Source: Psychroserpens sp. Hel_I_66
Lineage (GTDB): Bacteria > Bacteroidota > Bacteroidia > Flavobacteriales > Flavobacteriaceae
DNA: 64,000 nucleotides
Assembly: GCF_000799465.1 (NCBI RefSeq)
Contig: NZ_JUGU01000001.1
Coordinates: 3,306,501-3,370,500, forward strand
Direction of reading: 5' to 3'
The notes beneath the pieces were generated by a model, which saw only the letters and a list, made by a program, of their open reading frames with translations, did not search any database and was not told where the DNA came from. The position numbers and the translations under genes are program-made. Positions 2 to 64,000 of this stretch are shown here, one piece after another (the first letter of the stretch is position 1; every line of letters starts with the position of its first letter).

Positions 2-763
2 ACACTAGGATACAGTATTGTTTTAGATCCAACAACTTTAAATGGGCCAGCTGGGTTTACAGATGGTGATGCTTTTGGAGTTGCTTCAGCAGCACATTTT
101 ATTAATGATCTTTTCCCTGTTATAGAAGGTTCTCAAGGTTTTTTTATTGAGGATACCGATGGAACAATTACTATGAGTTTTGATTTCGTAGATCTTGCAG
201 GAACAACCAATCCACAGTTTAGTATGCAATACGTTTTAGAATCTACAAGCTGGGAAATAGAGGATTTTTTAAAAATAACGATTCAATTCACAGACTGTGC
301 AAATCCAGCATTAACATTAATTGATAGTTCTGGACTTGACATTGATGATTTGGGCATTGAAGGAAGTTGGAATACTTTAAATGCTGATTTATCTTCATAT
401 ACTGCATGTAAAGCGCAATTAGTTATTGAGTTTTCATCAAATTCTGCAGCCGAAGAATTAGGACTAGATGCAATTTCATTTACCGCTGGGATGACATTAT
501 CAAACACAAATTTTGATTTAGACAATTCAATTTCAGTGTATCCAAATCCTTCTAATGGTAATGTTACGATAAAGAACTCTGGTGTTTCCCTTGAAAATGC
601 TTTAATAACAGATGTTAACGGTCGTTTTATTAAATCTTACGATTTGAACGGAACAACGTTAGATAAAGAAGTTGATTTAAGTTCAGTAGTTTCTTCAGGA
701 ATATATTTTATGACTATTTCTTCGGAAAATGGCTCGACGGTAAAAAAGATCATTATTCAATAA
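2..763 (+). CDS. T9SS type A sorting domain protein, 5' end outside window
   Basis: The reading frame is open from base 2, so the start lies upstream; 253 residues are visible. The last ~75 residues form a T9SS C-terminal sorting domain: a YPNPSNG motif near the domain start, a central ITDVNGR segment and a final basic KKIIIQ strand. Such proteins are exported by Sec, moved across the outer membrane by T9SS, and anchored or released. The upstream part closely resembles the next gene's product along its whole visible length (for example shared DLAGTTNPQFSM and LGIEGSWNTL), so the two are tandem paralogues. Domain function before the sorting tail is not recognised. Confidence 0.85.
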   Translation, partial: TLGYSIVLDPTTLNGPAGFTDGDAFGVASAAHFINDLFPVIEGSQGFFIEDTDGTITMSFDFVDLAGTTNPQFSMQYVLESTSWEIEDFLKITIQFTDCANPALTLIDSSGLDIDDLGIEGSWNTLNADLSSYTACKAQLVIEFSSNSAAEELGLDAISFTAGMTLSNTNFDLDNSISVYPNPSNGNVTIKNSGVSLENALITDVNGRFIKSYDLNGTTLDKEVDLSSVVSSGIYFMTISSENGSTVKKIIIQ

Positions 764-949
764 AGCAGAAACTAAAAAAGCAAATCGTCAAATTTCGATT
801 TATTCATATTTAATAAGAGTTTGAGTTTGTGTACAATTAAATATGCTATTGACGTCGAATCAAATTGTTTATAGAATGAACATGGGGTAATAGTTTTAAC
901 TATCTGTTATTCAAAACTTTTAATTTATTAATCCAAACATTATGCTATT

Positions 950-1921
950 ATGAAAACAAAATTACTTTTTATTATTTTATTACTTCCTACAGTAATACTC
1001 TCTCAAATCAATCAGGGATTTGAGAATGTGCCAGGTATCACATTTGATGGTGGTGCTTGTCGCTATTTTGATTTTGATACTGCTACAGTACATGAACTTC
1101 AAAATTACAATTCACCGTGCGGTATCATTTACGTTAAAGAAACGGGATCTGCTTCTACATTAGGATATTTTGTAACTCTTGATCCTACCACCTCAAATGG
1201 ACCAGCAGGTTTTAGTGATGGAGACAATTTTGGTGTAGCAACAGCTGCTTCTTTTGTCTCTGGAATTGGGCTAGCACCACCAGAAGGTTCACAAGGATTT
1301 TACATGCAGGATGTAGATGGCACTGTATTAATGAGTTTTGACGTTGTTGACTTAGCAGGAACTACCAACCCTCAGTTTAGTATGAACTATATTTTAGAAA
1401 CTACAGGCTATGAGTTAGAAGATTTTGTGAAAATCTCTATTAAATTCACCGATTGCGCTAGCTCAACCATTGATTTGTTGAATTCCGTAGGAAGTGACAT
1501 CAATGATTTAGGTATCGAAGGTTCTTGGAACACGCTTAGTGCAGATTTATCTACATACTCAAGTTGTAAAGCGCAATTACTGGTTCAATTTTCGTCTAAT
1601 TCTACTGCTGAAGAATTAGGGATTGACGGAATTTCTTTTTCGCAAGGAACAGTCCTTTCTAATAATAAGGTTGATTTAGTTGATGCATTAAGTGTCTATC
1701 CTAACCCTTCAAATGGTGTGATAACTATTAAAAACTCTGGAGTAGAGCTTACTAGTGCTATCATTACAGATGTAAATGGACGTATAGTTTCCTCTATTGA
1801 TTTAAAAGGAACATCTCTTGATAGTGAGATTAACTTAAGTTCTGTATTGTCTTCAGGAATGTACTTTATAAAGATTTTTTCAGATAATGCATCTACAGTT
1901 AAAAAGCTAATTATCAAATAA
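950..1921 (+). CDS. T9SS type A sorting domain protein, tandem paralogue
   Basis: 323 residues. An N-terminal signal peptide (MKTKLLFIILLLPTVILSQ) is followed by an unrecognised all-beta-looking region (residues ~20-245) and a T9SS sorting domain (~248-323, with YPNPSNG and ending KKLIIK). It is probably a secreted or surface-anchored protein. Residues ~65-323 align without large gaps to the truncated protein just upstream, which indicates a local gene duplication. The 187-bp gap between them shows no terminator, so co-transcription is possible. The substrate or binding role is unknown. Confidence 0.85.
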   Translation: MKTKLLFIILLLPTVILSQINQGFENVPGITFDGGACRYFDFDTATVHELQNYNSPCGIIYVKETGSASTLGYFVTLDPTTSNGPAGFSDGDNFGVATAASFVSGIGLAPPEGSQGFYMQDVDGTVLMSFDVVDLAGTTNPQFSMNYILETTGYELEDFVKISIKFTDCASSTIDLLNSVGSDINDLGIEGSWNTLSADLSTYSSCKAQLLVQFSSNSTAEELGIDGISFSQGTVLSNNKVDLVDALSVYPNPSNGVITIKNSGVELTSAIITDVNGRIVSSIDLKGTSLDSEINLSSVLSSGMYFIKIFSDNASTVKKLIIK

Positions 1922-1941
1922 TATAAACTTTTATAATTAAT

Positions 1942-1970
1942 AAAAAGGCAACCAATTTGGGTGCCTTTTT
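1942..1970. terminator. Bidirectional rho-independent terminator
   Basis: Inverted repeat with arms AAAAAGGCA and TGCCTTTTT; A-run on one side and T-run on the other. It sits between the convergent T9SS gene and the Lrp regulator and can serve both. Confidence 0.8.
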
Positions 1971-1987
1971 ATTTAAGTAATATAAAA

Positions 1988-2458
1988 TTAAATCTTAATT
2001 TGTCTGTCAATTTGTTGATTAAGAGAAATAAATGTTTCGGTTCTTGAAACACCTGTTATAGATTGAATATCTTTATTGAGCACATGCATTAAATGCTCAT
2101 TATCCTTACATAATATCTTTATAAAAATACTCCAGTTACCAGTTGTATAATGACACTCTAGAACTTCAGGGATTTTTTGCAATTGTTTTACAGCTTCGGG
2201 ATTACTGATGGCTTTATCTAAATAAATACCAATAAAGGCCATTGTTGTGTAACCTAAAACTTTGGGATTGATAACGAATTTTGAACCTGAAATCAAACCC
2301 GATTTTTCCAACTTTCGAAGGCGCTGGTGAATCGCTGCTCCAGAAATGCCAACACCTCTTGCGATTTCCAGAATTGGAGTTCTGGCATCTTGCATTAGGG
2401 CTCTAAGGATTTTTTTATCAATCCCATCAATAATTATATTGTTATTTTGTGTTTTCAT
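1988..2458 (-). CDS. Lrp/AsnC family transcriptional regulator
   Basis: 156 residues with the classic two-domain layout. Residues ~10-60 form the winged HTH (IDKKILRALMQDARTPILEIAR, then the recognition region GISGAAIHQRLRKLEKSGLI). Residues ~70-150 form the RAM ligand-binding and oligomerisation domain. Members sense amino acids and act locally or globally. The next gene upstream on the same strand encodes a saccharopine-dehydrogenase-family enzyme, so lysine or a related amino acid is a plausible effector; this is inference from position only. A structured element lies in the 200-bp gap between the two genes. Confidence 0.9.
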   Translation of the reverse strand: MKTQNNNIIIDGIDKKILRALMQDARTPILEIARGVGISGAAIHQRLRKLEKSGLISGSKFVINPKVLGYTTMAFIGIYLDKAISNPEAVKQLQKIPEVLECHYTTGNWSIFIKILCKDNEHLMHVLNKDIQSITGVSRTETFISLNQQIDRQIKI

Positions 2459-2530
2459 CGGGTTTTAGTTTCGGTTGAAAACTTAAATGTAAGGAAATGA
2501 TTTTAATGTGAAAGCACTATCTTGCGTTAA

Positions 2531-2650
2531 GGATGGAAGTGGCATCCTTTTTTTCAGCCATATATGGCAAAAAAAGATAGAGCGTACAGCCTGACCCGCT
2601 GGGAGCCTGTAAGCCAAATAAGGCTGGCAGGTTCGTAGAGGGTAACGCCC
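2531..2650 (-). ncRNA. Structured RNA element (possibly the flavobacterial Flavo-1-type motif)
   Basis: Several nested pairings are visible (given in + strand letters). GGATG/CATCC forms a small hairpin (2531-2547). A T7 run, GCCATATATGGC and an A7 run form a long hairpin (2548-2575). GCGT/ACGC with ACCC/GGGT forms a long-range stem (2582-2597 with 2640-2648). It encloses an inner hairpin CCTG..GCC/GGC..CAGG. On the minus strand it directly follows the stop of the saccharopine-dehydrogenase gene. From memory, similar elements recur in many flavobacterial intergenic regions; the family name is my recollection, not a search result. Strand is inferred from that memory. Confidence 0.55.
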
Positions 2651-2659
2651 AAAATAAGA

Positions 2660-4024
2660 TTATATATTTAAAGGGTTATAGCCTAGGTAAGGCACATCTT
2701 TTTCAGAAAATTGAATGCCAAAATCTTCTAGTTCTTTTAAGATTGGTTGGTAAACTTCTTTGGTGATAGGAATTTGAACTCCGGGAGTTGTAATCTCTTC
2801 ATTTAAAATGGCTAGAGTTGCAATAGCCACTGGTAAACCAACTGTTTTTGCCATTGCAGTGTACGTCTGGTCTTCACCAATGGTCACCATAGTAGAATCG
2901 ATTTGGTGCATTTTGCCATTGAGCTCATATCCAAATTTATGGTACATCACGATCATATCTTTATCGTGTTCTTCTAAGGTCCAGCTATCCATTAGAATCT
3001 TCTGGAGAATTTGCGCTGGTGTTGCTTTTTTAAGTTCTACCATTTTGGTCTTACTAAAAATATCCAACTCTTCTAGCTTGTCCCAAACAATATCATCTTG
3101 ATCAATTTTTAGGGCGTGCCTAAATTTTAGTTCTACGGAATCTGTTGGGCTATAAGGTAAAAAGGCATTTACAAAATCACGATAGCTCATGTTCTCACTA
3201 TCTTCTATAGTGTAACTATCATCTGTTAAACCAAGTTGTACGAACATATTCCATGCGCGACTAAAACCAACTTTCCTAATGGTACCGCGATATAATGTAT
3301 TGATATGATCTAGACCATATACCGATTGATATTTAAGGGAATCTCTATTGGCATAGGCTTCAAAACGACCGTAACCTTCAATCTCTAAAAACTCTGTTCT
3401 TCTAAACAATCTGTTATACGGTATGTATTTATAGGAGTCTTCTTGTAAAAATTTTGCTGCACTTCCTTGGCCTGCAACCACCACGTTTCTTGGATTCCAT
3501 GTAAATTTATAATTCCATAGATTATTATCGCTTTCTGGAGCAACAAGACCTCCTGTAAAAGATTCAAACAAAACCATTTTACCTCCTTTTGCACGAATAT
3601 TGTCAATCACTTTCATTGCACTCATGTGGTCAATACCAGGATCTACACCAATCTCATTCATAAAAACCAAACCTTTGTCCGTTACGGTTTTATTTAATTT
3701 CTGCATTTCTGGACTTACGTAAGATGCTGTGACCATGTTTTTACCATAGGCAACACAATCTTTTGCGACTTCTATATGAAATCTTGCAGGTAGCATTGAT
3801 ACCACGATATCAGCATTTTCAATAGCTGCTTTTCGTGATGATTTATCAAAAACGTCTAATGTTATGGCTTGAGCATTCTCATGATCTCCAATAATCTTTC
3901 TTACATTTTGTAAATTGATATCTCCAACAATAATATGTAATTCCTCTTCTATAGATTTATCTAGTAAATATTTGATGAGATAAGATGTGGATTTTCCAGA
4001 ACCAATGACTAATATCTTTCGCAT
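2660..4024 (-). CDS. Saccharopine dehydrogenase family protein
   Basis: 454 residues. The N-terminal Rossmann fold starts MRKILVIGSGKS and includes VGDINLQN and the VVSMLPARFHIEVAKDCVAYGKNMVTASY segment typical of saccharopine reductases. EIGVDPGIDHM (~residues 123-133) opens the C-terminal dimerisation and substrate domain. The enzyme interconverts saccharopine with glutamate and aminoadipate semialdehyde, using NAD(P). In this group it most likely serves lysine catabolism; a glutaryl-CoA-dehydrogenase-like gene elsewhere in the window (25.8-27.0 kb) would fit a later step. The exact reaction is not proven by sequence. It is followed on the same strand by a structured RNA element and an Lrp-type regulator. 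Confidence 0.9.
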   Translation of the reverse strand: MRKILVIGSGKSTSYLIKYLLDKSIEEELHIIVGDINLQNVRKIIGDHENAQAITLDVFDKSSRKAAIENADIVVSMLPARFHIEVAKDCVAYGKNMVTASYVSPEMQKLNKTVTDKGLVFMNEIGVDPGIDHMSAMKVIDNIRAKGGKMVLFESFTGGLVAPESDNNLWNYKFTWNPRNVVVAGQGSAAKFLQEDSYKYIPYNRLFRRTEFLEIEGYGRFEAYANRDSLKYQSVYGLDHINTLYRGTIRKVGFSRAWNMFVQLGLTDDSYTIEDSENMSYRDFVNAFLPYSPTDSVELKFRHALKIDQDDIVWDKLEELDIFSKTKMVELKKATPAQILQKILMDSWTLEEHDKDMIVMYHKFGYELNGKMHQIDSTMVTIGEDQTYTAMAKTVGLPVAIATLAILNEEITTPGVQIPITKEVYQPILKELEDFGIQFSEKDVPYLGYNPLNI

Positions 4025-4113
4025 AATGGGTTTTCTTGAGTAATTTTGTTATTCTTATTAATTACGAATTTAGTAAATACAACGGGTTATAAAAACTCAA
4101 ATCAGATTTATAT

Positions 4114-4509: not shown

Positions 4510-4537
4510 TTATTACAGACTACTTTAAATAAATGTT

Positions 4538-4545: not shown

Positions 4546-4569
4546 CAGTCTAAACAACATAAACAAATT

Positions 4570-6186
4570 ATGGTAAACCATACACAAAATACGAAAACGA
4601 TTTCGTTAGAAAATTACGGTATTAAAAACGCAAAAGTGAGATATCAATTATCTCCAACTGAACTTCATGATATCACCATATCAAAAGGTCAGGGAAAAGA
4701 AGCATCTTCTGGTGCTTTAGCAGTCAATACTGGAGAATTCACAGGTCGTTCACCTCAAGACAGATTTATCGTTAAAGATGACATTACAAAAGATCGCGTT
4801 TGGTGGGGAAATATCAACATTGCTTTTGATGCTGATAAATTTCAAAAATTATATAACAAAGTAACAGATTACCTTTCTGATAAAGAGGTTTTTGTAAGAG
4901 ATAGTTTTGCGTGTGCAGATGAGAATTACAAATTAAATATTCGTGTTATAAATGAATATCCTTGGAGCAATATGTTTGCTTACAATATGTTTTTACGACC
5001 TAATGAAGAAGAATTAAAAGATTTTTCTCCTGAATGGACTGTTGTTAATGCTCCTGGTTTTATGGCAGATCCTGAAGTTGATGGAACAAGACAACACAAT
5101 TTTGCGATTTTAGACTTTACTCGTAAAATCGCTTTGATTGGAGGCACTGGATATACTGGCGAAATTAAAAAAGGTATTTTCTCTGCTTTGAATTTTATTC
5201 TTCCTGTTTTTAAAAACACATTACCTATGCATTGCAGTGCCAATGTTGGTAAAGATGGAGATACTGCTATATTTTTTGGTTTGTCTGGTACGGGTAAAAC
5301 AACGTTATCTACAGATGCAGATCGTAGTTTAATTGGTGATGATGAGCACGGATGGACTAAAGAAAACACCGTATTTAATTTTGAAGGCGGTTGTTATGCA
5401 AAGGTTATTAACTTATCAAGAGAGCAAGAGCCAGAAATTTATGATGCCATCAAAAAAGGAGCAATCCTTGAGAACGTAATCATGAACGATAAAGGTGAAG
5501 TTCAATTTGAAGATACTTCTATAACTCAAAATACAAGGGTAAGTTATCCTATATATCATATTGATAATATTAGAAAACCGTCTATCGGTGAAAACCCTAA
5601 AAATATTTTCTTTTTAACCGCAGATGCTTTTGGAGTATTGCCTCCAATTTCAAAACTAACACCTAGTCAAGCTGCTTACCATTTTATTTCTGGTTATACA
5701 GCAAAAGTTGCAGGAACAGAGGCTGGAGTTGTTGAGCCAACACCAAATTTCTCAGCGTGTTTTGGTGCGCCTTTCATGCCATTGCATCCTACAAAATATG
5801 CAGAGATGCTAAGTAAGAAAATGAAAGATTCTGGTGTAAATGTATGGTTGGTGAACACAGGTTGGACAGGTGGACCTTACGGAGTTGGTACACGTATGAA
5901 ATTAAAATATACTAGAGCAATGATCAACGCTGTTTTAAACGGTCATTTAGGGCAGTATACTTATGAAGATTACCATATCCATTCTGTATTTGGAGTTGCA
6001 CAACCTAGAAGTTGTCCTGGTGTTCCAAACGAAGTTTTAAGTCCGAGATCAACTTGGAACGATGACGAAAATTATTATAAAACTGCCTTTAAATTAACGA
6101 ATGCGTTTCGCGAGAATTTCAAAAAGTTTGAAGAGCATGCTTCCGAAGAAATTAGAAGAGGAGGTCCTCAGCGTTATAGTTTCTAA
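4570..6186 (+). CDS. pckA: Phosphoenolpyruvate carboxykinase (ATP)
   Basis: 538 residues from the ATG at 4570. The enzyme converts oxaloacetate plus ATP to PEP, CO2 and ADP, the entry step of gluconeogenesis. Visible motifs are the PEPCK P-loop GLSGTGKTTLS (~residues 237-247) and the metal and nucleotide kinase-2 motif GDDEHGW (~255-261). Other family signatures are NTGEFTGRSPQDRF near the N-terminus and NTGWTGGPYGVG near residue 430. Length is normal for the ATP-dependent family. An upstream in-frame TTG (4543) is rejected because it lies inside the -7 promoter element. The motif TTCCGAAGAA lies at 6141. Confidence 0.97.
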   Translation: MVNHTQNTKTISLENYGIKNAKVRYQLSPTELHDITISKGQGKEASSGALAVNTGEFTGRSPQDRFIVKDDITKDRVWWGNINIAFDADKFQKLYNKVTDYLSDKEVFVRDSFACADENYKLNIRVINEYPWSNMFAYNMFLRPNEEELKDFSPEWTVVNAPGFMADPEVDGTRQHNFAILDFTRKIALIGGTGYTGEIKKGIFSALNFILPVFKNTLPMHCSANVGKDGDTAIFFGLSGTGKTTLSTDADRSLIGDDEHGWTKENTVFNFEGGCYAKVINLSREQEPEIYDAIKKGAILENVIMNDKGEVQFEDTSITQNTRVSYPIYHIDNIRKPSIGENPKNIFFLTADAFGVLPPISKLTPSQAAYHFISGYTAKVAGTEAGVVEPTPNFSACFGAPFMPLHPTKYAEMLSKKMKDSGVNVWLVNTGWTGGPYGVGTRMKLKYTRAMINAVLNGHLGQYTYEDYHIHSVFGVAQPRSCPGVPNEVLSPRSTWNDDENYYKTAFKLTNAFRENFKKFEEHASEEIRRGGPQRYSF

Positions 6187-13007: not shown

Positions 13008-13457
13008 CTATTTTAGATTCATAGCTTCCCAGTTTTTGTCGGCTTTTTGTTGTAGACCTTTCACATCACTTTCTTGCCATGTAGTTAAAGTATTGTTAAA
13101 CCAAGCATTGTAGAATAAGTAGAGTTTTCCGTCTCTTATCTCGAAGGTTTTAGGGTTGATATCAACCTTTTTATTATCAACTGCAATGGCATAAGCACAG
13201 TAACCACCGTATTGCGGAACGTATTTTTCTGGATTACTACTAAATTTCTTCAAGTTCTCTTCCGAAGAAAATTTATAGTTTACGCCATAATGCATAGTCG
13301 TAAATTCTTTTTTACCCTCAATGGCTTGATTGTCAAAATAGGCAACAACGTCATAGCCTTTTGCCATGTAATCGTTTTTTGTATTGTAATCAGCACTTTG
13401 GGCGAATGTGGTGAGCATCACAAAGAAAAAAAATGCACCAAGAATTTTAGTTTTCAT
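13008..13457 (-). CDS. YHS domain-containing exported protein
   Basis: 149 residues. A cleavable signal peptide (residues 1-20, ending TFAQ) precedes a YHS domain (~30-95: KGYDVVAYFDNQ..GKKEF, YKFSSEENLKKFSSNPEKYVPQYGGYCAYAI). YHS domains are thought to bind metal. The C-terminal part contains a conserved-looking LYLFYNAWFNNTLTTW segment. Precise function unknown; probably periplasmic. Contains a copy of the TTCCGAAGAA decamer at 13260. Confidence 0.85.
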   Translation of the reverse strand: MKTKILGAFFFFVMLTTFAQSADYNTKNDYMAKGYDVVAYFDNQAIEGKKEFTTMHYGVNYKFSSEENLKKFSSNPEKYVPQYGGYCAYAIAVDNKKVDINPKTFEIRDGKLYLFYNAWFNNTLTTWQESDVKGLQQKADKNWEAMNLK

Positions 13458-13487: not shown

Positions 13488-14468
13488 TTACAGTACCATG
13501 AGATTGCAGCCTCTTATATCACTTGCATCAAATCTACCTATAATTTCAAAGCTAGAATTATCGTGTACTCGACCCAGATCTTGGGTAGCGATAAAGGAGC
13601 AAGAATTGATATTGGCAAGGTCAATAACATTTATTCCGCCAGTTTTTTTAGTGGATTGGATTGTGAGTGCATCTTCAGGATCACGGGTTAAAACGCGCAT
13701 CCAATTTGGGCATTTAAAAAGTCCGTCGCCTTGTGAATAGGCTTGGCTCAACAATTCGGTCATGCCATATTCACTATGTATTTTAGAGACTCCAAAACCC
13801 GATTCTAAAATCCCGTGCAATTCTTCCCTAACCAATTCTTTCCTGCGACCTTTCATGCCACCAGTTTCCATAATTATAGTGTTCTTGAGATTAAATTGAT
13901 GGTTTTCTACCAAATCTAAAAGTGCAAATGAAACGCCAATGAGCAACACTTTTTTTTCTTCGGAAGCTAAAGCATTCAAATGTGTTGTAAGTGCGTCGAT
14001 ATTGTTGAGGTAAAATCCGCTTTCAGGGTTTTGTGACTGTTTGATCATATCATCAACCATGTAGATTAATGATGACCCGTTACGTTCTAAATAACTGGGT
14101 AAAAGTGCGAGAATGGTATAATCTTTAATATTTCCGTAGAAATCATGAAAGCCTTTTCTAAAACTTTGCTCGTAGATTTTTAAATCTGTTACGTGGTGCT
14201 TACTCGTAATTGATCCCGTTGTACCACTACTTGAAAATGTGTCTTCAATTTGGGATTTGGAACTGAGAATTTTATGACTTTTAAAAAACTGAATAGGTAA
14301 AAACGGAATATCCTCAACACGTTTTACATCACTAGGATGTTTGTACAATAAATCACAAAACGAACGGTAGACCGGATTGTTTTCAAACTGAAATTTGAAG
14401 ACTTCCAAAGCTAGCGTATTAAATTCACTTTCCGAAGAAATAGAAAATATAGCGTCTGTGTTTATCAT
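13488..14468 (-). CDS. LuxE-like acyl-protein synthetase / acyl transferase
   Basis: 326 residues. The TFSSSGTTGSITSKHHV segment (~83-99) is the phosphate-binding motif of adenylate-forming enzymes of the LuxE/PaaK type. The YGMTELLSQAY motif (~232-242) supports this. LuxE activates fatty acids for reduction in bioluminescence, but no lux genes are present. Stand-alone relatives in Bacteroidetes are usually annotated only as acyl transferases, possibly for exopolymer or pigment synthesis. Substrate unknown. It carries two copies of the overrepresented decamer (13956, 14430). Confidence 0.75.
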   Translation of the reverse strand: MINTDAIFSISSESEFNTLALEVFKFQFENNPVYRSFCDLLYKHPSDVKRVEDIPFLPIQFFKSHKILSSKSQIEDTFSSSGTTGSITSKHHVTDLKIYEQSFRKGFHDFYGNIKDYTILALLPSYLERNGSSLIYMVDDMIKQSQNPESGFYLNNIDALTTHLNALASEEKKVLLIGVSFALLDLVENHQFNLKNTIIMETGGMKGRRKELVREELHGILESGFGVSKIHSEYGMTELLSQAYSQGDGLFKCPNWMRVLTRDPEDALTIQSTKKTGGINVIDLANINSCSFIATQDLGRVHDNSSFEIIGRFDASDIRGCNLMVL

Positions 14469-19319: not shown

Positions 19320-19994
19320 GTGGGAAGTAAAAACAAACTTAAGAGATTTAAGGAAAATGAAACGTTCTCTAATGTGTTTCAGCCAAAAAGGGAGGAATTA
19401 GTCGATTCAGAATATGAACTTAAGGGAAACTGGAATTCTGAAGTATTCAAAAACAATAATCCTCTGGTATTAGAACTGGGTTGCGGTAGAGGAGAGTATA
19501 CAGTTGAGTTGGCGAAAAAATTTCCGAAGAAAAACTTTATAGGTATCGATATAAAGGGAGCGCGTTTTTGGAGAGGCGCCAAAACAGCCATTGAAGAAAA
19601 CTTACCAAACGTGGCATTTATACGCACACAAATAGAGCTTGTAGATTTTGTCTTTGCCAAAAATGAAGTTGACGAAATCTGGATTACGTTTCCAGATCCT
19701 CAAATAAAATACAAGCGTACCAAGCATAGAATGACGAATTCTCAATTTTTAAATCGCTATAAAACTATTTTAAAACCAGAAGGTTTTGTAAATTTAAAAA
19801 CAGATAGTGAATTTATGCATGGATATACTCTGGGGCTTTTGCATGGAGAGGGACACGAAGTGGTGTATGCAAATCACAATGTGTATAAGCAAGAAGGAAG
19901 CCCAGAAGAAGTAACGAGCATTCAAACCTACTATGAATCTCAATATTTAGAGCATAATAAACCAATTACGTATATTAAATTCAAAATTAACTAA
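19320..19994 (+). CDS. trmB: tRNA (guanine-N7-)-methyltransferase
   Basis: 224 residues from a GTG start; the N-terminus MGSKNKLKRFKENETFSNVFQP matches the flavobacterial family. SAM-binding motif LELGCGRGEYTVELAKKFP (~49-67) and IGIDIKGARFWRG, then the TrmB hallmark WITFPDPQIKYKRTKHRMTNSQFL. It methylates G46 of tRNA. It begins a three-gene cluster with LysE (2-bp gap) and the alkyltransferase-like protein (1-bp overlap). Confidence 0.95.
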   Translation: MGSKNKLKRFKENETFSNVFQPKREELVDSEYELKGNWNSEVFKNNNPLVLELGCGRGEYTVELAKKFPKKNFIGIDIKGARFWRGAKTAIEENLPNVAFIRTQIELVDFVFAKNEVDEIWITFPDPQIKYKRTKHRMTNSQFLNRYKTILKPEGFVNLKTDSEFMHGYTLGLLHGEGHEVVYANHNVYKQEGSPEEVTSIQTYYESQYLEHNKPITYIKFKIN

Positions 19995-25664: not shown

Positions 25665-25689
25665 AGTTATAAAGATACAATTTCCGAAG

Positions 25690-25724
25690 AAAAAAATGCT
25701 TCCCGTATTTGAGAAGCATTTTTT
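25690..25724. terminator. Terminator after the acyl-CoA dehydrogenase gene
   Basis: Stem AAAAAATGCTTC/GAAGCATTTTTT with a loop of about 11 nt and A/T runs. A copy of TTCCGAAGAA (25682-25691) abuts its 5' arm. Confidence 0.85.
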
Positions 25725-32388: not shown

Positions 32389-35300
32389 ATGTACTTAATA
32401 TTTGATACCGAAACCACAGGATTGCCAAAAAGGTGGGATGCACCAATTACAGATGTAGATAACTGGCCAAGATGTATTCAAATTGCATGGCAACTCCATG
32501 ACGAAATGGGTAATTGTATAGACCATCAAGATTATCTAGTAAAACCAGAGGGTTTTAATATTCCTTACGATGCTGAAAAAATTCACGGAATTTCTACGGA
32601 ATTAGCTCAAGAACAAGGTGTGGCACTCCAAGACGTTTTGGAGAAATTCAAAATAGCGCTTTCAAAAACAAAATTTGTGGTAGGTCAAAACGTGAAGTTT
32701 GATCTCAATATTATGGGAGCAGAATTTGTTAGAGAGGAAATCTCAAATGAGCTTCAAGAACTTCCGGTTTTAGATACCTGTACAGAGCATACTGCAGAGT
32801 TGTGCCAGATTCCTGGTGGTCGTTATGGAAAATTTAAGCTTCCAACACTCACAGAGTTACATCAATTTTTATTTAATCAACCATTTGCAGAAGCACATAA
32901 TGCCACAGCAGATGTTGAGGCAACTACAAGATGCTTTTTAGAGCTCATAAGACTTGAAGAATATACAAAAGAGCAGTTAGACGTTGAGCCAGGTTATTTT
33001 CAGGATTTTAAGGAGGAGAACCCCAATACAATCCAACTCATTGGCTTAAAGCACATCAATCTCAAAAAAGAAAGTGCAAAAATAAATGAGCGTCTTCAAA
33101 AACTACAAGGAGAAGATATTTCCGAAGAAGAAATAAAAGAAAATATTTCTGAACTACAGGAGGTTGATTTTGTGCATCTTCATAACCATTCCCAGTTTTC
33201 GGTATTGCAATCTACAATTAGTATTTCAGATTTGGTGGCTGTCGCAGCAGAGCATAAAATGCCTGCAGTTGCACTCACAGACCATGCTAATATGATGGGA
33301 GCTTTTCATTTTGTAAAAGCAGTAAACATCCATAATAAAAATGTAGAGTTAAAACATAAAGAAGCTGAAGAAAAAGGAGAGGTTTCTTCGGAAAAAGAAA
33401 TAAAACCAATCATTGGCTGCGAGTTTTTTGTTTGTGAAGATCATAAGGATAAATCCAGAAAAGACAATGGCTATCAAATTGTGTTAATCGCTAAGAATAA
33501 AGAAGGCTATCACAACTTGGCTAAACTATCGTCACATGCCTTTGTTGATGGTTTTTATTATTTGCCAAGAATAGATAAAAAACTCATTCAAAAATACAAA
33601 GAACATCTTATTTGCTTAACTGGTAACCTATATGGTGAAGTCCCAAGCAAAGTGTTGAACGTTGGAGAAAACCAAGCAGAAGAAGCATTACTTTGGTGGA
33701 AACAAGAATTTGGAGAGGATCTATACATCGAATTAATGCGACACAATCAAGAAGATGAAAATCGTGTTAATCCTGTGTTGATTGATTTCTCAAAAAAACA
33801 TGATGTTAAATTAATAGCTTCAAACAATACCTATTATTGCAAAAAAGAAGATGCCAATGCACACGATATTTTACTGTGCGTTAAAGATGGAGAAAAGCAA
33901 GCCACACCAATAGGAAGGGGTAGAGGCTATCGTTACGGTTTGCCAAACAAAGAGTATTATTTTAAATCTTCAGAAGAAATGAAATCCTTGTTTAAGGACG
34001 TGCCAGAGGCGATTAGTAATATTCAAGACGTCGTAGATAAGGTTGAAGGTTATCAACTGGCGCGGGATGTATTATTACCTGCTTTTGATATCCCAGAAGA
34101 ATTTAAAAACAACGCAGATATTGATGATGGAGGCAAACGTGGTGAAAATGCCTACCTAAAACATTTAACGTTTAAAGGTGCGAAAAAACGATACGGAGAA
34201 GAATTAAGTGATGAGATCGTTGAGAGGCTTGATTTTGAGTTGAGCGTTATTGAAAACACGGGTTATCCAGGTTACTTTTTAATTGTGGAGGATTTTATTC
34301 GTGAAGCTCGAAATATGGATGTTTCTGTTGGTCCAGGTCGTGGTTCTGCAGCTGGATCTGTGGTTGCTTATTGCTTGTGGATAACCAATATTGATCCTTT
34401 AAAATATGACTTGCTTTTTGAGCGTTTCTTAAATCCAGATCGTGTGAGCATGCCAGATATTGATATCGATTTTGATGATGAAGGTCGAAGTCGTGTGATG
34501 GATTATGTGATCAAAAAATATGGTTCAAATCAAGTTGCTCAAATTATTACCTACGGAACGATGGCTGCAAAGTCATCTATTCGAGATACAGCAAGAGTAC
34601 TCGATTTGCCATTGTTTGAAGCAGATCGCATAGCAAAGCTTATCCCGACAATGTCAAAACTGAATAAGATTTTTGGCCTATCGGAAAAGGAACTGGGCAG
34701 TAAATTTAGAGCAGATGATTTAGAAAAAGTTAATGAACTGCTCAATATTGCAGATGGTGAAGGCTTAGATGCAGAAACTATAAATCTAGCCAGAACCCTT
34801 GAAGGATCAGTTAGAAATACGGGTATTCATGCCTGCGGAGTTATTATTACTCCAGACGATATTACCAATTTTGTGCCTGTTTCCGTAGCAAAGGATTCCG
34901 ATTTGTATGTCACGCAATTTGATAACTCTGTAGTTGAAGATGCAGGTTTGCTCAAAATGGATTTTTTGGGATTGAAAACGTTAACCTTAATAAAGGATAC
35001 GGTTAAAATCGTAAAGGCAAAACATGATATTTTATTGGATCCTGATAGCTTTCCGCTTGACGATGAGAAAACATATGAACTGTTTCAAAAAGGAGAAACG
35101 GTTGGAGTGTTTCAATATGAATCTCCCGGAATGCAAAAACATTTAAAGGAATTAAAACCAACGGTTTTTGAGGATTTAATTGCGATGAACGCACTATATC
35201 GTCCAGGACCAATGGAATATATCCCAAGTTTTACAAGACGTAAACATGGTGATGAAGATATTGAGTACGACTTACCCGCAATGGAAGAGTATCTCAAAGA

Positions 35301-43288: not shown

Positions 43289-45604
43289 ATGTTACACTAT
43301 ATCATACAAGTCGTTGCGTTTCAATTACTGTTTTTAATTATCTATGATTTGTTTCTGCGAAAGGAAACTTTTTTCACCCTCAATCGTATCTATCTGTTAA
43401 GTACATCCATATTATCGTTGGTGATTCCCTTTGTCAAAATAGAGCGCATAAAAGAAGTAGTACCCAAAGATTTTGTAATTAGCCTACCAGAAGTTCTCAT
43501 TGGTGACACCACAAAGCCAGCAAGCGCAATTGATCCTACCACTACTTTAGAAGCAGGCATCAATATTGGGCCACAACCAGTTTCTATTTGGAATATCATA
43601 TTAATATCTGGGATGTGTGTTGCTGCCTTGATTTTAGTCTATAAAATCATTAAACTATTCTTGTTGGTGTCTAAAAATCCAAAATATCGAAATGGAAAAG
43701 TGTTGATTATCTCTTTATTGAATAGCACAAAAGCCTTTTCATTTTTTAACTACATCTTTTTAGGAAATCGTTTGACTGCAAAAGAAAGTACGTCAATTTT
43801 AGAACATGAAATGGTACATATCAAACAAAATCACTCATTAGATCTTTTGTTTTTTGAACTATCCCGTATCGTCTTCTGGTTCAATCCATTGGTTTACATC
43901 TATCAAAATAGAATTGCAACAGTTCACGAATATATAGCAGATGCCAAAGCAGTAAAAGGAAAAAATAAGGCAGACTATTACGATAATTTACTAATCCAGG
44001 TCTTTGAGACCCAACAATTCTCATTTGTCAATCCATTTTTTAAAAAATCATTAATCAAAAAACGAATCGTTATGTTAAGCAAATCAAAATCAAAACAAAT
44101 CAATTTGGTCAAATATGCATTACTCATCCCAATGGTATTTACAATGCTCATTTATACATCCTCTTATGCTCAAGATAAAATTACGACTTCTTCGGAAATT
44201 GAAAACCAAGACACTCAGGAGTTGACAGATGAGGAGCTAAAACAAAAACTCTATGAGGAATTAGTAGAAATGGAGAAAGACGGTAAATCGTCTATTGAAA
44301 TTAAGAATTTCATTATGAACAATGACACTCATAAATACCTTAAGTCTAGAATAGAATATTATAAACTTGGAGTTTATATGACATACATGCTAGAATCTGC
44401 AAAAAAAAGAAATTCTGAAAATTCGTCCTCTAGCGAAAACTTTGCTGAACTTGAAAACTCACTATCTAATCAAAGAACTTATAAAGAGTACGTTGAATGG
44501 AAAAAAACCGATGAAGCCAAATCAAGTTGGGAAAATAAAAATATTGATGGAGTTTTAAAACTATTTGTTGAGGACTTAAACAATCTAACTTCCGAAGAAA
44601 GGAAAAAAAGAGCAGAGAAGTTAGAGTTGCTAAATACCAACGATTTTTATCACAAGCTCATTGTATCAGATTATTATGATTCAAATGTTTTTGACTTCGG
44701 AAAAGAAAAAAACACTTTTAAATTCAATACTAATGATGACATAGAAATCATCGAAGTTGACGAAAATATTGAAGTCCCATTCGCAATAATCGAAGAAACA
44801 CCAACCTTCACCTTCTGCGAATCTCTAGAAACAAACCAAGAGCGAAAAGAATGTATGAGTGACAACATCTCAAAACATGTTGCTACAAACTTTAATACCA
44901 AACTAGCAGATAGTCTAGGTTTGACAGGTCGCCAACGTATAAACGTTGTTTTTAAAATCGATAAACAAGGAGATATTATCGATGTCAAATCTAGAGCATC
45001 ACACCCTGCCCTAGAAGAAGAAGCCATTAGAGTTATTAAAACCTTACCTCAATTAGTTCCAGGAAAACAAAAAGGAAAAGCAGTTGTAGTGCCTTATAGC
45101 TTACCAATTATTTTTCAAGTTAAGGCAGATAATACAAATGCCTCTGAAAACACAAATCTAAATGATATTATAAAATCGTTAAAAGAGTCTCTTGCGAATT
45201 CAGTAAATAGTCAAGTAAAAAAAATACTTTTTAGTGAAGTAGATCAAGTGCCAATGCACGAAGCATGTGCTGGCTTAACTAGTAACGAAGATCAAAAAAA
45301 GTGTATCTCAAACGAGATTTCAATGTTTGTCAATAAAAATTTTAATCTAGACCTCGCTTCAAAATTAGGTTTGAAAGGAAGACAACAAATTAGTGCATTG
45401 TTTGCTATTAATAAAAATGGTGAAACTCAAGATATTAAAGTTAGGGCTCCACACCCAGAATTAGAGAAAGAAACTGAAAGGGTTATTAAAGCATTACCAC
45501 AGTTTATACCAGGTATGCATAATGGTAAATCTGTAACCGTGATGTATAGCCTGCCAATACTATTTCAAGTAGCAGACGATACTAAAGACAACAAGAAAAA
45601 TTGA
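43289..45604 (+). CDS. BlaR1-like M56 metalloprotease with two TonB-like C-terminal domains
   Basis: 771 residues. N-terminal membrane helices, M56 zinc-protease motif HEMVH (H173, E174, H177) and a helix near residue 275. There is no penicillin-binding sensor domain. Instead the periplasmic part has a ~200-residue charged region and two homologous TonB-C-like domains (~534-610 and ~684-761), each starting LGL.GRQ.I and ending YSLPI.FQV. The domain may sense stress or interact with TonB-dependent receptors; inference. It would cleave or inactivate the BlaI-like repressor. Contains two TTCTTCGGAA-type decamers (44188, 44590). Confidence 0.88.
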   Translation: MLHYIIQVVAFQLLFLIIYDLFLRKETFFTLNRIYLLSTSILSLVIPFVKIERIKEVVPKDFVISLPEVLIGDTTKPASAIDPTTTLEAGINIGPQPVSIWNIILISGMCVAALILVYKIIKLFLLVSKNPKYRNGKVLIISLLNSTKAFSFFNYIFLGNRLTAKESTSILEHEMVHIKQNHSLDLLFFELSRIVFWFNPLVYIYQNRIATVHEYIADAKAVKGKNKADYYDNLLIQVFETQQFSFVNPFFKKSLIKKRIVMLSKSKSKQINLVKYALLIPMVFTMLIYTSSYAQDKITTSSEIENQDTQELTDEELKQKLYEELVEMEKDGKSSIEIKNFIMNNDTHKYLKSRIEYYKLGVYMTYMLESAKKRNSENSSSSENFAELENSLSNQRTYKEYVEWKKTDEAKSSWENKNIDGVLKLFVEDLNNLTSEERKKRAEKLELLNTNDFYHKLIVSDYYDSNVFDFGKEKNTFKFNTNDDIEIIEVDENIEVPFAIIEETPTFTFCESLETNQERKECMSDNISKHVATNFNTKLADSLGLTGRQRINVVFKIDKQGDIIDVKSRASHPALEEEAIRVIKTLPQLVPGKQKGKAVVVPYSLPIIFQVKADNTNASENTNLNDIIKSLKESLANSVNSQVKKILFSEVDQVPMHEACAGLTSNEDQKKCISNEISMFVNKNFNLDLASKLGLKGRQQISALFAINKNGETQDIKVRAPHPELEKETERVIKALPQFIPGMHNGKSVTVMYSLPILFQVADDTKDNKKN

Positions 45605-46791: not shown

Positions 46792-47268
46792 ATGAACCGC
46801 GTACTCGCTTTTTTATTTCTAACCACGTTTTGCTCCTGTGAATTTATCGAGAAGAAGAAAGTCTATTCTAATGACATCGTTGAGGAAGAACTCCAAACCT
46901 TCAATTGGAATGATGTTGACGAGTATCCCTCTTTTGAATCCTGCGAAGCAACATTAGATAAAGCCAATAAAAAAGCCTGCTTTGAGAACACGTTGAGAGA
47001 AATTCTCAATAAAAATCTAGCAAAATATAAAATTATCGTTTCCGAAGAAATCCACGATACCATACATTTAAAAATCACGATTGATAATGATGGCGAATTT
47101 GTTGTTGATGATATCATTAGCAATGAAAAAACGCAAGCAGAAATACCAAAACTAGACAGTTTACTTCGGAAAAGTTTAGACTCACTTCCAAAAATCTACC
47201 CAGCAATTAAGAGAAGTCAGCACGTTAAAACGCAGTTTAGCTTACCTGTAATTATTAAGATTGATTAA
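46792..47268 (+). CDS. Small lipoprotein with TonB-C-like fold, related to the BlaR-like C-terminus
   Basis: 158 residues. Lipobox near C14/C16 (FLTTFCSC). The body repeats the pattern seen before each TonB-like domain of the M56 protein: SCEATLDKANKKACFENTLREILNKNL resembles its FCESLETNQERKECMSDNISKHV. A beta-rich tail ends in QFSLPVIIKID. It looks like a stand-alone copy of that domain attached to a membrane. It lies 51 bp after the TPR gene, probably in the same operon. TTCCGAAGAA at 47040. Confidence 0.7.
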   Translation: MNRVLAFLFLTTFCSCEFIEKKKVYSNDIVEEELQTFNWNDVDEYPSFESCEATLDKANKKACFENTLREILNKNLAKYKIIVSEEIHDTIHLKITIDNDGEFVVDDIISNEKTQAEIPKLDSLLRKSLDSLPKIYPAIKRSQHVKTQFSLPVIIKID

Positions 47269-59348: not shown

Positions 59349-60394
59349 TGGGATCTTTACTTAAACGACAAATCCGAAAATACTTAACGCCAGAGTTAGC
59401 AGCCAATAAAGATTTGGAAGTTTTTTTGGACGCTGTTGGTAGATCATACACTAATTTTGATGAGCAATTTGCCATGCAACAGCGGGCAATGAGCATAAGT
59501 TCCGAAGAACTCTTTAATGCTAACGAGAAATTAAAAAAAGAAGCCGAATCCCAAAAAGAGATCATTACCAAACTTAAAAACGTTCTTGAGACCCTTAAAT
59601 TTTATAAACTACCTGAAGAGGGTATAATTAACGATGTTGATTTAGATAGTTCAAAATTATTGGACTTCATCGATGGTAAAACCCGAGAGATCGTAGAAAT
59701 AAATAAGCAGCGTGAAGCACTCGTTAATGAGTTGGCACATCAAAATCAAGAATTAAGTGATTATGCGCATATGGTATCCCACGATTTAAAGTCACCTTTA
59801 AGAAGTATAGATACATTGACTGCCTGGTTAAAGGAGGATTATAAAGACCAGTTTGACGAGAACGGAAATCAAAATTTAGATCTCATAAGGAGTAACGTTG
59901 AAAAAATGGATACCCTAATTAATGGTATTTTAGAATATTCAACCATCGGGAAATTGCAAGTAGAAGTGTATGACGTCAATTTGAATACTCTAATCGATGA
60001 TATTTTAAATACTATACAAGTGCCTCATAACATAAATGTTGTAAAAAATAACCTACCTACAGTGAAAGGCGATAAGCATAGATTACAACAGTTATTTCAA
60101 AACCTAATCGATAACGCTATTTCACATAATGACAAGGAAACTGGCAACATAGAGATTGGAGCTGTTGATAAAGGCGAATTATGGGAATTTTATATTTCAG
60201 ATAATGGGAAAGGTATTGATAGTGCCTATTTTGATAAGATATTTAAAACGTTTGAAACGCTAGAAAGCAACGTGCAATCTACAGGCATTGGTCTTTCAAT
60301 AGTAAAAAAGATTGTCAATTTATACGGAGGTACCATTTGGTTGACTTCGGAAATTGGAAAAGGCACAACATTCTTCTTCACATTAAAAAAATAG
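59348..60394 (+). CDS. Soluble sensor histidine kinase, FIST partner
   Basis: 348 residues. The N-terminal ~130 residues are helical (LLKRQIRKYLTPELAANKDLEVFLDAVGRSYTNFDEQFAMQQRAMSISSEEL) and could dock a partner. HisKA H145 (DYAHMVSHDLKSPLRSIDTLTAWLKED) and HATPase (NLIDNAISH, DNGKGID, STGIGLSIVKKI) are intact. The catalytic core closely resembles that of the PAS kinase two genes upstream. No membrane segment. Two bp later follows an Hpt gene. Confidence 0.92.
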   Translation: MGSLLKRQIRKYLTPELAANKDLEVFLDAVGRSYTNFDEQFAMQQRAMSISSEELFNANEKLKKEAESQKEIITKLKNVLETLKFYKLPEEGIINDVDLDSSKLLDFIDGKTREIVEINKQREALVNELAHQNQELSDYAHMVSHDLKSPLRSIDTLTAWLKEDYKDQFDENGNQNLDLIRSNVEKMDTLINGILEYSTIGKLQVEVYDVNLNTLIDDILNTIQVPHNINVVKNNLPTVKGDKHRLQQLFQNLIDNAISHNDKETGNIEIGAVDKGELWEFYISDNGKGIDSAYFDKIFKTFETLESNVQSTGIGLSIVKKIVNLYGGTIWLTSEIGKGTTFFFTLKK

Positions 60395-60714: not shown

Positions 60715-60724
60715 TTAGGACTAA

Positions 60725-61527: not shown

Positions 61528-61530
61528 TAT

Positions 61531-61901: not shown

Positions 61902-62013
61902 AAGTTTGAGAAATTTTAAAAGTTCTGTTATTTTTTAAGTAGTGGAGATAAAAGTATATATTGTTTGATAGACAATGAGTTAGATGCAAGTTTTCTTTAA
62001 TCAAGCCTAATAA

Positions 62014-62118
62014 ATGAAAATAACTGAAATAGTGGCTGGCGGTGTAATATCAGAAACACTAAGTATAGATATCGTCAGGATATTAGCAGAAAATTACGAT
62101 ACTTTAATTTCTGGATAA
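62014..62118 (+). CDS. Possible 34-residue peptide ORF
   Basis: ATG to TAA, encoding MKITEIVAGGVISETLSI and 16 further residues. No signal peptide, promoter or homologue that I recognise. It is listed because it is a clean short ORF in an otherwise empty 800-bp gap; a chance ORF is at least as likely. Confidence 0.2.
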   Translation: MKITEIVAGGVISETLSIDIVRILAENYDTLISG

Positions 62119-62236
62119 CAAAATTCTACACTTGACGACTTGTAAAAATAATTGCTTGTTTTATATCTAATCGAAAAATCCTAAGGATTTTCCTTTGGTT
62201 TGTTTTCTTTTACTAACTTATTTCTTTCCAATATAC

Positions 62237-64000
62237 CTAATCCCTAAACAAAGGACCATCAAACAGCCTCCAGTTAAATCTCAGGCCAATTTCCGTAAAG
62301 GTAAAACCAGCAGCAGTAGCAGAGGCAATATTACTTCGTGTCCCAAACACGTTTAACATACTGCGCTCAGAAAATTTATAACCCAGCTTAGCTTGAATAC
62401 GATAGGTGCTTTGACGTTCACCATCCTCAATATATTGTACGCCTGTTGCTGCGGTTAGTTCATAAAACCACTCGTTTGGCTTGGTCGTATTTTCATCTTT
62501 AATCAAATTTAAAAACACCTCTCCTGCTTGAAACGACTCCGGACTAAAATAAATGGTTGGCACTTGATCTGCAAACGTGATGTATTGATAGTTCAAACCT
62601 ACTTTTAGAGATGGCTTTGCCAATAGGTTGTAGTATAATGAGGTAAAGAGTAAATTTCTTTTGTTTCCATCATTTTGAGAGGTGAACATGTATTGTGTAA
62701 ACCAACCCAAGTTAAAATTGGTGCTGAGGTTGTAGTTTCCGTAGAAATTATTTTGCACAATCTCACGATCTAATAAATCGGCATTAAAACTTTGTATTTC
62801 CCTTTTGTAACCAATATCCAACGTTTGTAATTTAAGCGGTTTGATATGAAACGAAAGATCTGTTAAGAGTTGTGTATAGTCTGCTGTTTCTGCCTTTGCA
62901 GAGGTTAAGCCTGTTGTCCCATTAAAGGTAATATTGTTTAATAACTGGTAGGATAAACCTAAAGAGATATCGTTGGAGTTGGCTTTATTATTGGTAATCG
63001 TGTTGTTGGTGTTTCTATAGTTGTAGTTTCCTAAAATTTTAAGTTTTGTAGACAACGGAAACCATACATTGGTATGAAATGAATAGGCTTTATTGTTACC
63101 ATTATCAAAAGTATAGGCTGCTCTGGAGTCTAAAGCAGGTGTGAAACTGGTATTTAGATTAGTTATAAAATTCACCGCATCTTTTTGATTATCATAGAAG
63201 CTTAAGGTGTTTTCTGCGGAAGCATACGCCTCGTCATAGTAGCCTAATGCTTTTAGTGCATTAGCTTTTCCTAAGTTACCATCAAACGACGTACTGTCAT
63301 TTGCCAAGATTCTATTGTAATCTTTTAAGCTCTTTTTAAAATTACTTTTATAGACGTTTAAGGTTGCTCGCAATGCCAATACCCAATTTTCGTTGGGTTG
63401 CTCAAATATTAATGTGTCGATAACACGTTCTGCTTGTTTATATTTCTTATTCCAGATCAACGCTTGTGTGTAACGCTCTGTGGTTTGTTGTGAGACGATT
63501 TCCGAAGTATTTGAAGTTATTCCCGTAAACGCTTTCGTACTTAATTCTAGTGCTTTTTTCTCTTTTCCCTTTAAATGGGAAACTAAAGCCAAACCGTTTA
63601 GTGCTTCTAATGTATTGGATGGGTTTTTAGCGATTCTGCTATAAACAGCATTTGCATAATCAAGTTCATTGGTAATCAAATATAGATTGGCAAGATTCAT
63701 TAAGGTTTCTTTGTCTTCACCAAACAGTTCTAGGTTTTTAGTGAGTAGCGTTTCTGCTTCACCATAATTTTGGGCTTGTTGGTTTTGATATGCATATCCT
63801 AAATAGATGTATTTTTTTGAGACCATTGCGTTAGGATTTTCTGGAGAAACCACTAAAGCGTTATTGACATAAATCAAAGCCTTATCATATTCCTTTAAAT
63901 TAGAAAGAGTGTTGGCGTAACCTAAAAGTGCAGGAAAACTTTCTGGAGATTCGGTTACTAAACTATTGTAATAGGTTTTTGCTTCGGAAAATTTATGACT
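62237..64000 (-). CDS. TPR / YaiO-like outer-membrane beta-barrel protein, 5' end outside window
   Basis: 587 residues visible; the frame stays open to base 64000, so the start lies beyond. The N-terminal two-fifths are TPR units (for example SFPALLGYANTLSNLKEYDKALIYV, NLANLYLITNELDYANAVYSRIAKNPSN, LNGLALVSHLKGKEKKALELSTKAF). The C-terminal ~300 residues form a barrel with repeated aromatic strands and a terminal strand GFTFTEIGLRFNWRLFDGPLFRD. This TPR-plus-barrel layout resembles YaiO and polysaccharide-export outer-membrane components. Role not certain. Confidence 0.8.
   Translation of the reverse strand, partial: SHKFSEAKTYYNSLVTESPESFPALLGYANTLSNLKEYDKALIYVNNALVVSPENPNAMVSKKYIYLGYAYQNQQAQNYGEAETLLTKNLELFGEDKETLMNLANLYLITNELDYANAVYSRIAKNPSNTLEALNGLALVSHLKGKEKKALELSTKAFTGITSNTSEIVSQQTTERYTQALIWNKKYKQAERVIDTLIFEQPNENWVLALRATLNVYKSNFKKSLKDYNRILANDSTSFDGNLGKANALKALGYYDEAYASAENTLSFYDNQKDAVNFITNLNTSFTPALDSRAAYTFDNGNNKAYSFHTNVWFPLSTKLKILGNYNYRNTNNTITNNKANSNDISLGLSYQLLNNITFNGTTGLTSAKAETADYTQLLTDLSFHIKPLKLQTLDIGYKREIQSFNADLLDREIVQNNFYGNYNLSTNFNLGWFTQYMFTSQNDGNKRNLLFTSLYYNLLAKPSLKVGLNYQYITFADQVPTIYFSPESFQAGEVFLNLIKDENTTKPNEWFYELTAATGVQYIEDGERQSTYRIQAKLGYKFSERSMLNVFGTRSNIASATAAGFTFTEIGLRFNWRLFDGPLFRD

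Follow-up and report, generated by a model that had tools for sequence, protein, structure and literature searches.

A stretch of 64,000 nucleotides from Psychroserpens sp. Hel_I_66 (NZ_JUGU01000001.1, positions 3,306,501 to 3,370,500; hereafter the window) carries many copies of a short DNA word, TTCTTCGGAA, which we interpret, at a probability of roughly 0.6, as the trace left in the genome by a signal for the uptake of self-DNA, resembling the DNA uptake sequences (DUS) of the Neisseriaceae and the uptake signal sequences (USS) of the Pasteurellaceae. That the word is over-represented in this genome is certain. An initial annotation of the window had counted 21 exact copies by eye, 12 as TTCTTCGGAA and nine as TTCCGAAGAA on the plus strand, and every one lies where it was reported (Table 1). 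The 12 sites said to keep only the core are likewise all present, and five variants described as TTCT(G/A)CGGAA turn out to be cores shifted by 2 bp (32594, 49186, 49825, 52602, 63214).

In the window, where GC is 33.4%, the decamer is the commonest 10-mer, with 21 copies compared to 11 for the best A-rich word. Across the one-contig genome of 3,842,990 bp it occurs 970 times (459 forward, 511 reverse); the reversed, uncomplemented decamer, our control word, occurs only 16 times (8 + 8). The count against a Markov model that the initial annotation proposed gives the same answer: in 1.264 Mb of the genome we observed 317 copies where 4.9 are expected at order 3, making TTCTTCGGAA the strongest 10-mer in this DNA, and at order 5, in 464 kb, 113 copies remain against an expectation of 26. 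The strongest 8-mer in the 1.264 Mb is CTTCGGAA, with 679 copies against 36 expected.

The exact decamer comes close to the unit without quite matching it. In the 1.264 Mb the perfect 10-mer (317) outnumbers any single-mismatch word (61 for the largest), and tolerated mismatches fall mainly at positions 1, 2, and 5. Words mismatched at positions 1 and 2 are enriched 10-27 fold and those at position 5 are enriched 6-18 fold. At position 7 the mismatch is mainly C (7 fold), in a word that overlaps a reverse-strand core; positions 4 and 9 reach up to 5 fold on small numbers, and mismatches at positions 3, 6, 8, and 10 are not enriched (1.6 fold at most). The unit is the 8-bp core CTNCGGAA, where N is mostly T, preceded by a T-tract. 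The consensus is cleanest in intergenic copies: at 131 such core sites we found T at -3 in 89%, at -2 in 82%, and at -4 in 65%, A at +8 in 64%, and further downstream a weaker A/T preference to +14, C at position 17 (37%, background 14%), and T at 18. There are 1058 cores in the 1.264 Mb, about one per 1.2 kb, which resembles the density near one per kb of uptake sequences; the exact decamer is rarer than the core (970 in 3.84 Mb). Of the 54 cores in the window, 31 lie on the plus and 23 on the minus strand.

It is near certain that the DNA word is what is selected, and not the protein, as the initial annotation had supposed. Copies are read in several frames and both orientations, orthologous sites often differ by a synonymous base, and some copies lie between genes, including three exact ones (25682, 37897, 47275; genes are simple open reading frame calls throughout), the number given in the initial annotation. 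The enrichment also survives when codon context is taken into account. Ser-Ser-Glu (SSE) is spelled TCT TCG GAA in 81 of 162 cases (2.2 expected from codon usage) and Ser-Glu-Glu (SEE) is spelled TCC GAA GAA in 113 of 230 (10.4 expected), while the motif word spells 38 of 93 Phe-Phe-Gly (FFG) tripeptides (41%; 1.2 expected) and 13 of 86 Pro-Lys-Lys (PKK) tripeptides (1.2 expected). Given that half of SSE and SEE are written with the word, and that the motif spelling of SSE, SEE, and FFG exceeds the codon expectation 11 to 36 times, an artefact of codon context is ruled out, and the claim that coding copies use rare synonymous codons holds. In 17 loci of relatives, chosen for low motif counts, the same spellings make up 0/30 SSE, 2/51 SEE, and 0/10 FFG. 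The SSE, SEE, and FFG tripeptides themselves look commoner in this genome than in those loci.

We compared 17 core sites in the DnaE region with up to 80 relatives, the closest named one in DnaE being an uncultured Psychroserpens (L021, 92%). Relatives are often a single synonymous base away from the core, with CTTCAGAA or CTTCTGAA, i.e. CTTC[A/T]GAA. At the intergenic site 37899, the core is shared by only the two relatives named in Table 1. The site at 34551 is a misfit, with the core in L022-L025 and not in L021 or L027. Four sites (28047, 44190, 44590, 44695) had no alignable relative in this comparison.

The motif is distributed patchily. The 23 Psychroserpens genomes carry from 53 to 970 copies of the decamer; among 397 Flavobacteriaceae genomes from 237 genera most have fewer than 100, roughly balanced between strands. 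Nineteen genera include a genome with at least 150 copies, and at a threshold of at least 100 there are 26, four of them solely in assemblies less than 90% complete. Among the 330 good genomes (at least 90% complete), 37 are enriched at a threshold of at least 100 copies; the sets that we call non-enriched include three Psychroserpens (G004, G010, G014) whose 53-66 copies lie above background. Beyond the genus, 25 enriched genomes show the same core and T-tract at 152 sites in 225 kb, where the reversed control gives 29; five other Psychroserpens have 12 sites in 34 kb (control 4), and 22 non-enriched genomes have 13 in 142 kb (control 19). A tree of ComEC from 45 genomes, picked as cases and controls, requires five changes of the enriched state, at least three of them forced by well-supported branches, and cannot separate gain from loss. 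Outside the family, two scans of 296 and 294 genomes gave maxima of 73 (G435) and 86 (G858), none near enrichment. In many of these genomes the decamer is nonetheless several-fold above its reversed control (G908, 56 vs 6; G597, 38 vs 0), and given this mild excess the reversed word is an inexact measure of background. We found no word of like strength, and no evident second dialect, in 100 kb of each of three non-enriched genomes; the top words of one (G356) resemble a local repeat and another (G164) has weak words only.

With replication arms, origin, and terminus taken from GC skew alone, cores are split 281 plus to 274 minus on one arm and 241 to 262 on the other, such that 543 of 1058 point one way by arm (51.3%, confidence interval 48.3-54.4%, p 0.41). 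There is thus no replication polarity and, as with uptake sequences, no significant orientation bias. Chi sites, in contrast, are co-oriented with replication. A Chi-like recombination hotspot read by AddAB/RecBCD would share the short strict core, the high over-representation, and the asymmetric word, but the absent polarity contradicts this reading, to which we give very little credence. Of the roles listed in the initial annotation, recombination of the Chi type is therefore contradicted, and an uptake sequence fits best. Among the literature matches listed for Chi and AddAB there was no flavobacterial title.

Relative to genes, CTTCGGAA is found 323 times in sense and 249 times in antisense (p 0.002), with 107 copies intergenic. 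An RNA element, in which TTC-TTCG-GAA folds as a hairpin with a cUUCGg (UNCG) tetraloop, would accommodate both this sense excess and the variable position 5. Such a hairpin has next to no probability, however: there is almost no freedom at A9 and A10 but full freedom at T1 and T2, with which they would have to pair, and the exact decamer is balanced with respect to transcription (47 sense, 50 antisense, and 16 intergenic in 464 kb). That the partners are not co-constrained, together with this balance, led us to reject the tetraloop. The mild sense excess of CTTCGGAA agrees with the sense-strand excess in genes reported for uptake sequences (PMC2346458).

Motif density is 1.36 times higher between genes than in coding DNA, a non-coding preference seen in uptake sequences. 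So too are close inverted pairs: neighbouring cores less than 80 bp apart converge in 16 cases and diverge in four (p 0.012), with 11 in the same orientation. By 10-kb bins, DNA of 29-31% GC (n=11) has 3.0 cores compared to 9.35 at 33-35% GC (n=65), whereas a factor of 0.72 is expected from composition by itself; this motif-poor, low-GC DNA was probably acquired. In the chief rival to an uptake signal, the motif is bound by a chromosomal protein, abundant and in need of frequent sites on both strands (nucleoid-associated, SMC-loader-like, or replication-associated); this would explain the spread over the whole chromosome save the GC-poor bins, the lack of polarity, the intergenic preference, and the strict 8-bp core. 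We nevertheless consider it unlikely, because a range of 53 to 970 copies within one genus, with most of the 397 family genomes below 100, would be odd for a housekeeping site, and because the word is common in coding DNA, where the tripeptides that it spells look more abundant than in the 17 loci of relatives.

The genome has ComEC and DprA, genes of natural transformation by predicted function. It also has the gene arrangement of the Riemerella type, a barrel protein with CarboxypepD_reg (PF13620) adjoining a DUF5689 lipoprotein, as well as a protein with two HHH motifs (Table 1). We found no type IV pilus platform (PilC/GspF, PF00482), which a DUS system of the ComP/pilus type would be expected to have; a pilin receptor is therefore unlikely. 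PF00482 occurs in 8/32 enriched and 6/35 other genomes. The absence from this genome and the lack of association with enrichment speak against a link to type IV pili.

In a set of 70 genomes, DUF5689 is present in 67, and in 65 of these, our own included, a barrel homologue lies in the same short locus; in the other two (G185, G197) there is none within 1.5 kb on either side. Four of the 70 lack ComEC: G052, G120, G396, and G163, with 13, 6, 12, and 20 copies of the motif, none of them enriched. The first three are the genomes without DUF5689, which is kept in G163, so that DUF5689 is absent from 3/4 ComEC-less compared to 0/66 ComEC-bearing genomes (p 7e-5). None of the four has an intact HHH protein, the gene being either missing or broken; for some of the other 66 the presence of the protein of about 290 residues was deduced from at least two matches. 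In G120 (G120:C6:49623-49790) the HHH match lies in a frame broken by TGA and TAA, apparently a decaying gene. By gene content, the barrel-DUF5689 pair and the HHH protein are tied to competence across the family through joint loss with ComEC. The clearest contrast is between G052, which has no ComEC, the only partial best DprA match among 67 genomes, and 13 copies, and its congener G277, which has 178.

All 32 enriched genomes examined keep ComEC, DprA, and DUF5689, although the other ComEC-bearing genomes do too. A different DNA-processing bias unrelated to uptake (modification, repair, or a HIP1-like drive) could keep or spread the word, and its patchy, drive-like presence at synonymous positions would fit. 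This would not account for those genes in the enriched genomes, and in our judgement the combination of a T-tract, a strict core, and tolerance at positions 1, 2, and 5 is unlike a methylase site; we regard such a bias as rather improbable.

Several observations weigh against an uptake signal. The absence of competence is tied only weakly to the absence of the word: among the 330 genomes, 0/14 without ComEC are enriched compared to 37/316 with it (p 0.38), most ComEC-less genomes are small, and of the 43 genomes without ComEC in the family, 20 were identified directly and 23 by elimination. G223 (68% complete, 140 copies) and G406 (79%, 104), incomplete assemblies with no match to ComEC, are enriched; being less than 90% complete, both fall outside the 330. 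Among the 70 genomes, DUF5689 is kept by each of the 34 that bear ComEC and have fewer than 70 copies, so possession of the module is not enough for the motif. The type of DUF5689 does not follow enrichment; barrel residues R637, Q662, Q805, and L872 associate with it naively, yet such residues (e.g. Q805) fail a test on independent pairs (3-5 pairs on the ComEC tree of 45 genomes). A sister family (f2), which we guess to hold Riemerella, reaches at most 86 copies. Within our genome, the position of CTTCGGAA inside genes is flat (Kolmogorov-Smirnov p 0.997), whereas Pasteurellaceae sites lean towards gene ends (PMC2346458). Core spacing is random (median/mean 0.692 vs 0.693 for random, 658 gaps), without the more-than-random regularity reported as a tendency, not a defining trait, of uptake sequences. 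Finally, the 30 single-mismatch words together reach 527 copies (128 expected) in the 1.264 Mb and so exceed the 317 perfect ones, unlike the very strong consensus of USS and DUS.

On balance, we favour self-DNA uptake. A surface machine composed of the outer-membrane barrel and the DUF5689 lipoprotein, with the HHH protein in the periplasm and ComEC behind it, may bind or admit motif-bearing DNA more readily; recombination of the incoming DNA would then favour alleles with the motif, copies would accumulate by molecular drive, and the motif would be lost in lineages that lose competence or specificity. A fold search with the full-length DUF5689 protein matched its C-terminal jelly-roll only, so we folded the DUF5689 part alone. 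It is predicted to form OB domains, with RPA, HIN-200 with dsDNA, and RADX as the best Foldseek matches, making the lipoprotein a predicted tandem OB-fold. More tentatively, at somewhat less than even odds, TTTTTCTNCGGAAA would be an uptake signal outside the Neisseriaceae and Pasteurellaceae that is recognized by a pilus-free machine of the Flavobacteriaceae, through the two-OB-fold lipoprotein and/or the barrel and with no type IV pilin. If true, a preference for self-DNA in transformation would have evolved independently and on another machine, transformation may be widespread in marine flavobacteria, and the protein that reads the sequence in the pilus-free system would become easier to trace. 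Our literature search found no uptake word in Bacteroidota, and no flavobacterial title was among the matches listed for the decamer. Three papers contain CTTCGGAA and also mention flavobacteria, one of them dealing with Riemerella Cas1/Cas2. A confirmed tag of this kind would be new to this large group of bacteria.

Table 1. Copies of the motif in the window, and genes of the putative uptake machinery elsewhere in the genome.
Feature	Position	Strand	Remark
exact TTCTTCGGAA	718..727	+	exact match
exact TTCTTCGGAA	11811..11820	+	exact match
exact TTCTTCGGAA	13956..13965	+	exact match
exact TTCTTCGGAA	18471..18480	+	exact match
exact TTCTTCGGAA	25161..25170	+	exact match
exact TTCTTCGGAA	28429..28438	+	exact match
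exact TTCTTCGGAA	33384..33393	+	DnaE gene; core in 0/80 aligned relatives
exact TTCTTCGGAA	37897..37906	+	intergenic; core in 2/22 aligned relatives (L021, L027), others mostly gap
exact TTCTTCGGAA	44188..44197	+	exact match
exact TTCTTCGGAA	47275..47284	+	intergenic
exact TTCTTCGGAA	51321..51330	+	exact match
exact TTCTTCGGAA	51890..51899	+	exact match
exact motif (TTCCGAAGAA on +)	6141..6150	-	exact match
exact motif	13260..13269	-	exact match
exact motif	14430..14439	-	exact match
exact motif	19522..19531	-	exact match
exact motif	25682..25691	-	intergenic
exact motif	33120..33129	-	DnaE gene; core in 12/79 aligned relatives
exact motif	44590..44599	-	exact match
exact motif	47040..47049	-	exact match
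exact motif	59500..59509	-	exact match
core CTNCGGAA	3133..3140	+	core match
core CTNCGGAA	9359..9366	+	core match
core CTNCGGAA	16520..16527	+	core match
core CTNCGGAA	20685..20692	+	core match
core CTNCGGAA	21982..21989	+	core match
core CTNCGGAA	28350..28357	+	core match
core CTNCGGAA	32594..32601	+	core match
core CTNCGGAA	34551..34558	+	core match
core CTNCGGAA	44695..44702	+	core match
core CTNCGGAA	47164..47171	+	core match
core CTNCGGAA	49186..49193	+	core match
core CTNCGGAA	49825..49832	+	core match
core CTNCGGAA	51056..51063	+	core match
core CTNCGGAA	52275..52282	+	core match
core CTNCGGAA	52602..52609	+	core match
core CTNCGGAA	54378..54385	+	intergenic
core CTNCGGAA	60345..60352	+	core match
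core CTNCGGAA	63214..63221	+	core match
core CTNCGGAA	63982..63989	+	core match
core CTNCGGAA	1483..1490	-	core match
core CTNCGGAA	8519..8526	-	overlooked by the initial annotation
core CTNCGGAA	14132..14139	-	core match
core CTNCGGAA	23126..23133	-	core match
core CTNCGGAA	27026..27033	-	intergenic
core CTNCGGAA	28047..28054	-	core match
core CTNCGGAA	34881..34888	-	core match
core CTNCGGAA	41325..41332	-	core match
core CTNCGGAA	47625..47632	-	core match
core CTNCGGAA	52017..52024	-	core match
core CTNCGGAA	52673..52680	-	core match
core CTNCGGAA	60488..60495	-	core match
core CTNCGGAA	62737..62744	-	core match
core CTNCGGAA	63500..63507	-	core match
barrel-type protein with CarboxypepD_reg (PF13620), 950 aa	G000:C1:2728489-2731341 = L218 6489-9341	+	
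DUF5689 lipoprotein, 477 aa	G000:C1:2731398-2732831 = L218 9398-10831	+	adjoins barrel gene
two-HHH protein, 291 aa	G000:C1:232427-232807		matches at this position

Other features of these loci deserve mention. In Psychroserpens G003 and G004 (L199, L258) the barrel is 55-56% and the DUF5689 protein 31-33% identical to ours, more divergent than in the congeners examined, which suggests, from sequence comparison, that the pair was exchanged; despite the divergent pair, G003 has 601 copies of the motif and G004 has 63. DUF5689 occurs in tandem, as two or three domains, in L190/L255 (G277), L233 (G097), L216 (G304), and L215 (G135). Divergent from our barrel-DUF5689 pair lies an Exo_endo_phos_3 protein with a signal-like start (L218 5279-6349, minus strand), a possible candidate for the nuclease missing from the transformation model. 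The window itself encodes a 553-aa protein (14536-16197, minus strand) that combines an LTD-like stretch and a Por_Secre_tail with another DUF5689, a weak match (6e-11), and is probably secreted by the type IX secretion system. Around G000:C1 147560-151000 (L152), 43 copies of a word, mostly with a 76-bp period, make up a CRISPR-like array whose repeat is about 46 bp long.

The machinery for uptake in Pasteurellaceae is based on type IV pili, and the DUS of Neisseriaceae is a GCCGTCTGAA-type word that the pilin ComP recognizes. The pilus platform of USS systems is absent from our genome, as is any platform of the PilC type, and our scan of the three non-enriched genomes gave no evident second dialect of the kind known for DUS. 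The motif shares other features with both. The USS of Haemophilus and other Pasteurellaceae has a strict core of 8-9 bp with A/T-rich flanks, about one copy per kb in both orientations, close inverted pairs, and copies in coding and intergenic DNA, with fewer in a lineage whose competence genes are broken (PMC1626085). Our motif shares its strict core, A/T-rich flanks, density, use of both orientations, close inverted pairs, and coding and intergenic copies. The core itself differs, the strong T-tract lies 5' of it here and 3' in USS, single-mismatch copies are commoner, and spacing is random. Neisseriaceae DUS 10-mers number 943-5918 per genome (PMC3630211), a range that includes our 970, and both are distributed by lineage. 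Chi sites are likewise short, over-represented, asymmetric words, differing in their replication polarity. The machinery most similar to ours is the pilus-free one of Riemerella anatipestifer (RA0C_RS04915/04920/02645), where transformation involves ComEC, DprA, ComF, RecA, and four unusual genes, and needs the counterparts of our barrel, DUF5689, HHH, ComEC, and DprA genes (PMC8459023); the order of barrel then DUF5689, the HHH protein, ComEC, and DprA are common to both, and machinery of the Riemerella type further comprises ComF and DUF1343 proteins. For Riemerella no uptake word is known, the published k-mers being only A/T-rich words ranked by raw frequency (PMC7965970), although in R. 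columbina transformation its own DNA competes more than other DNA does (PMC7965970). By 2006, uptake words had been described only from the Pasteurellaceae and Neisseriaceae (PMC1626085).

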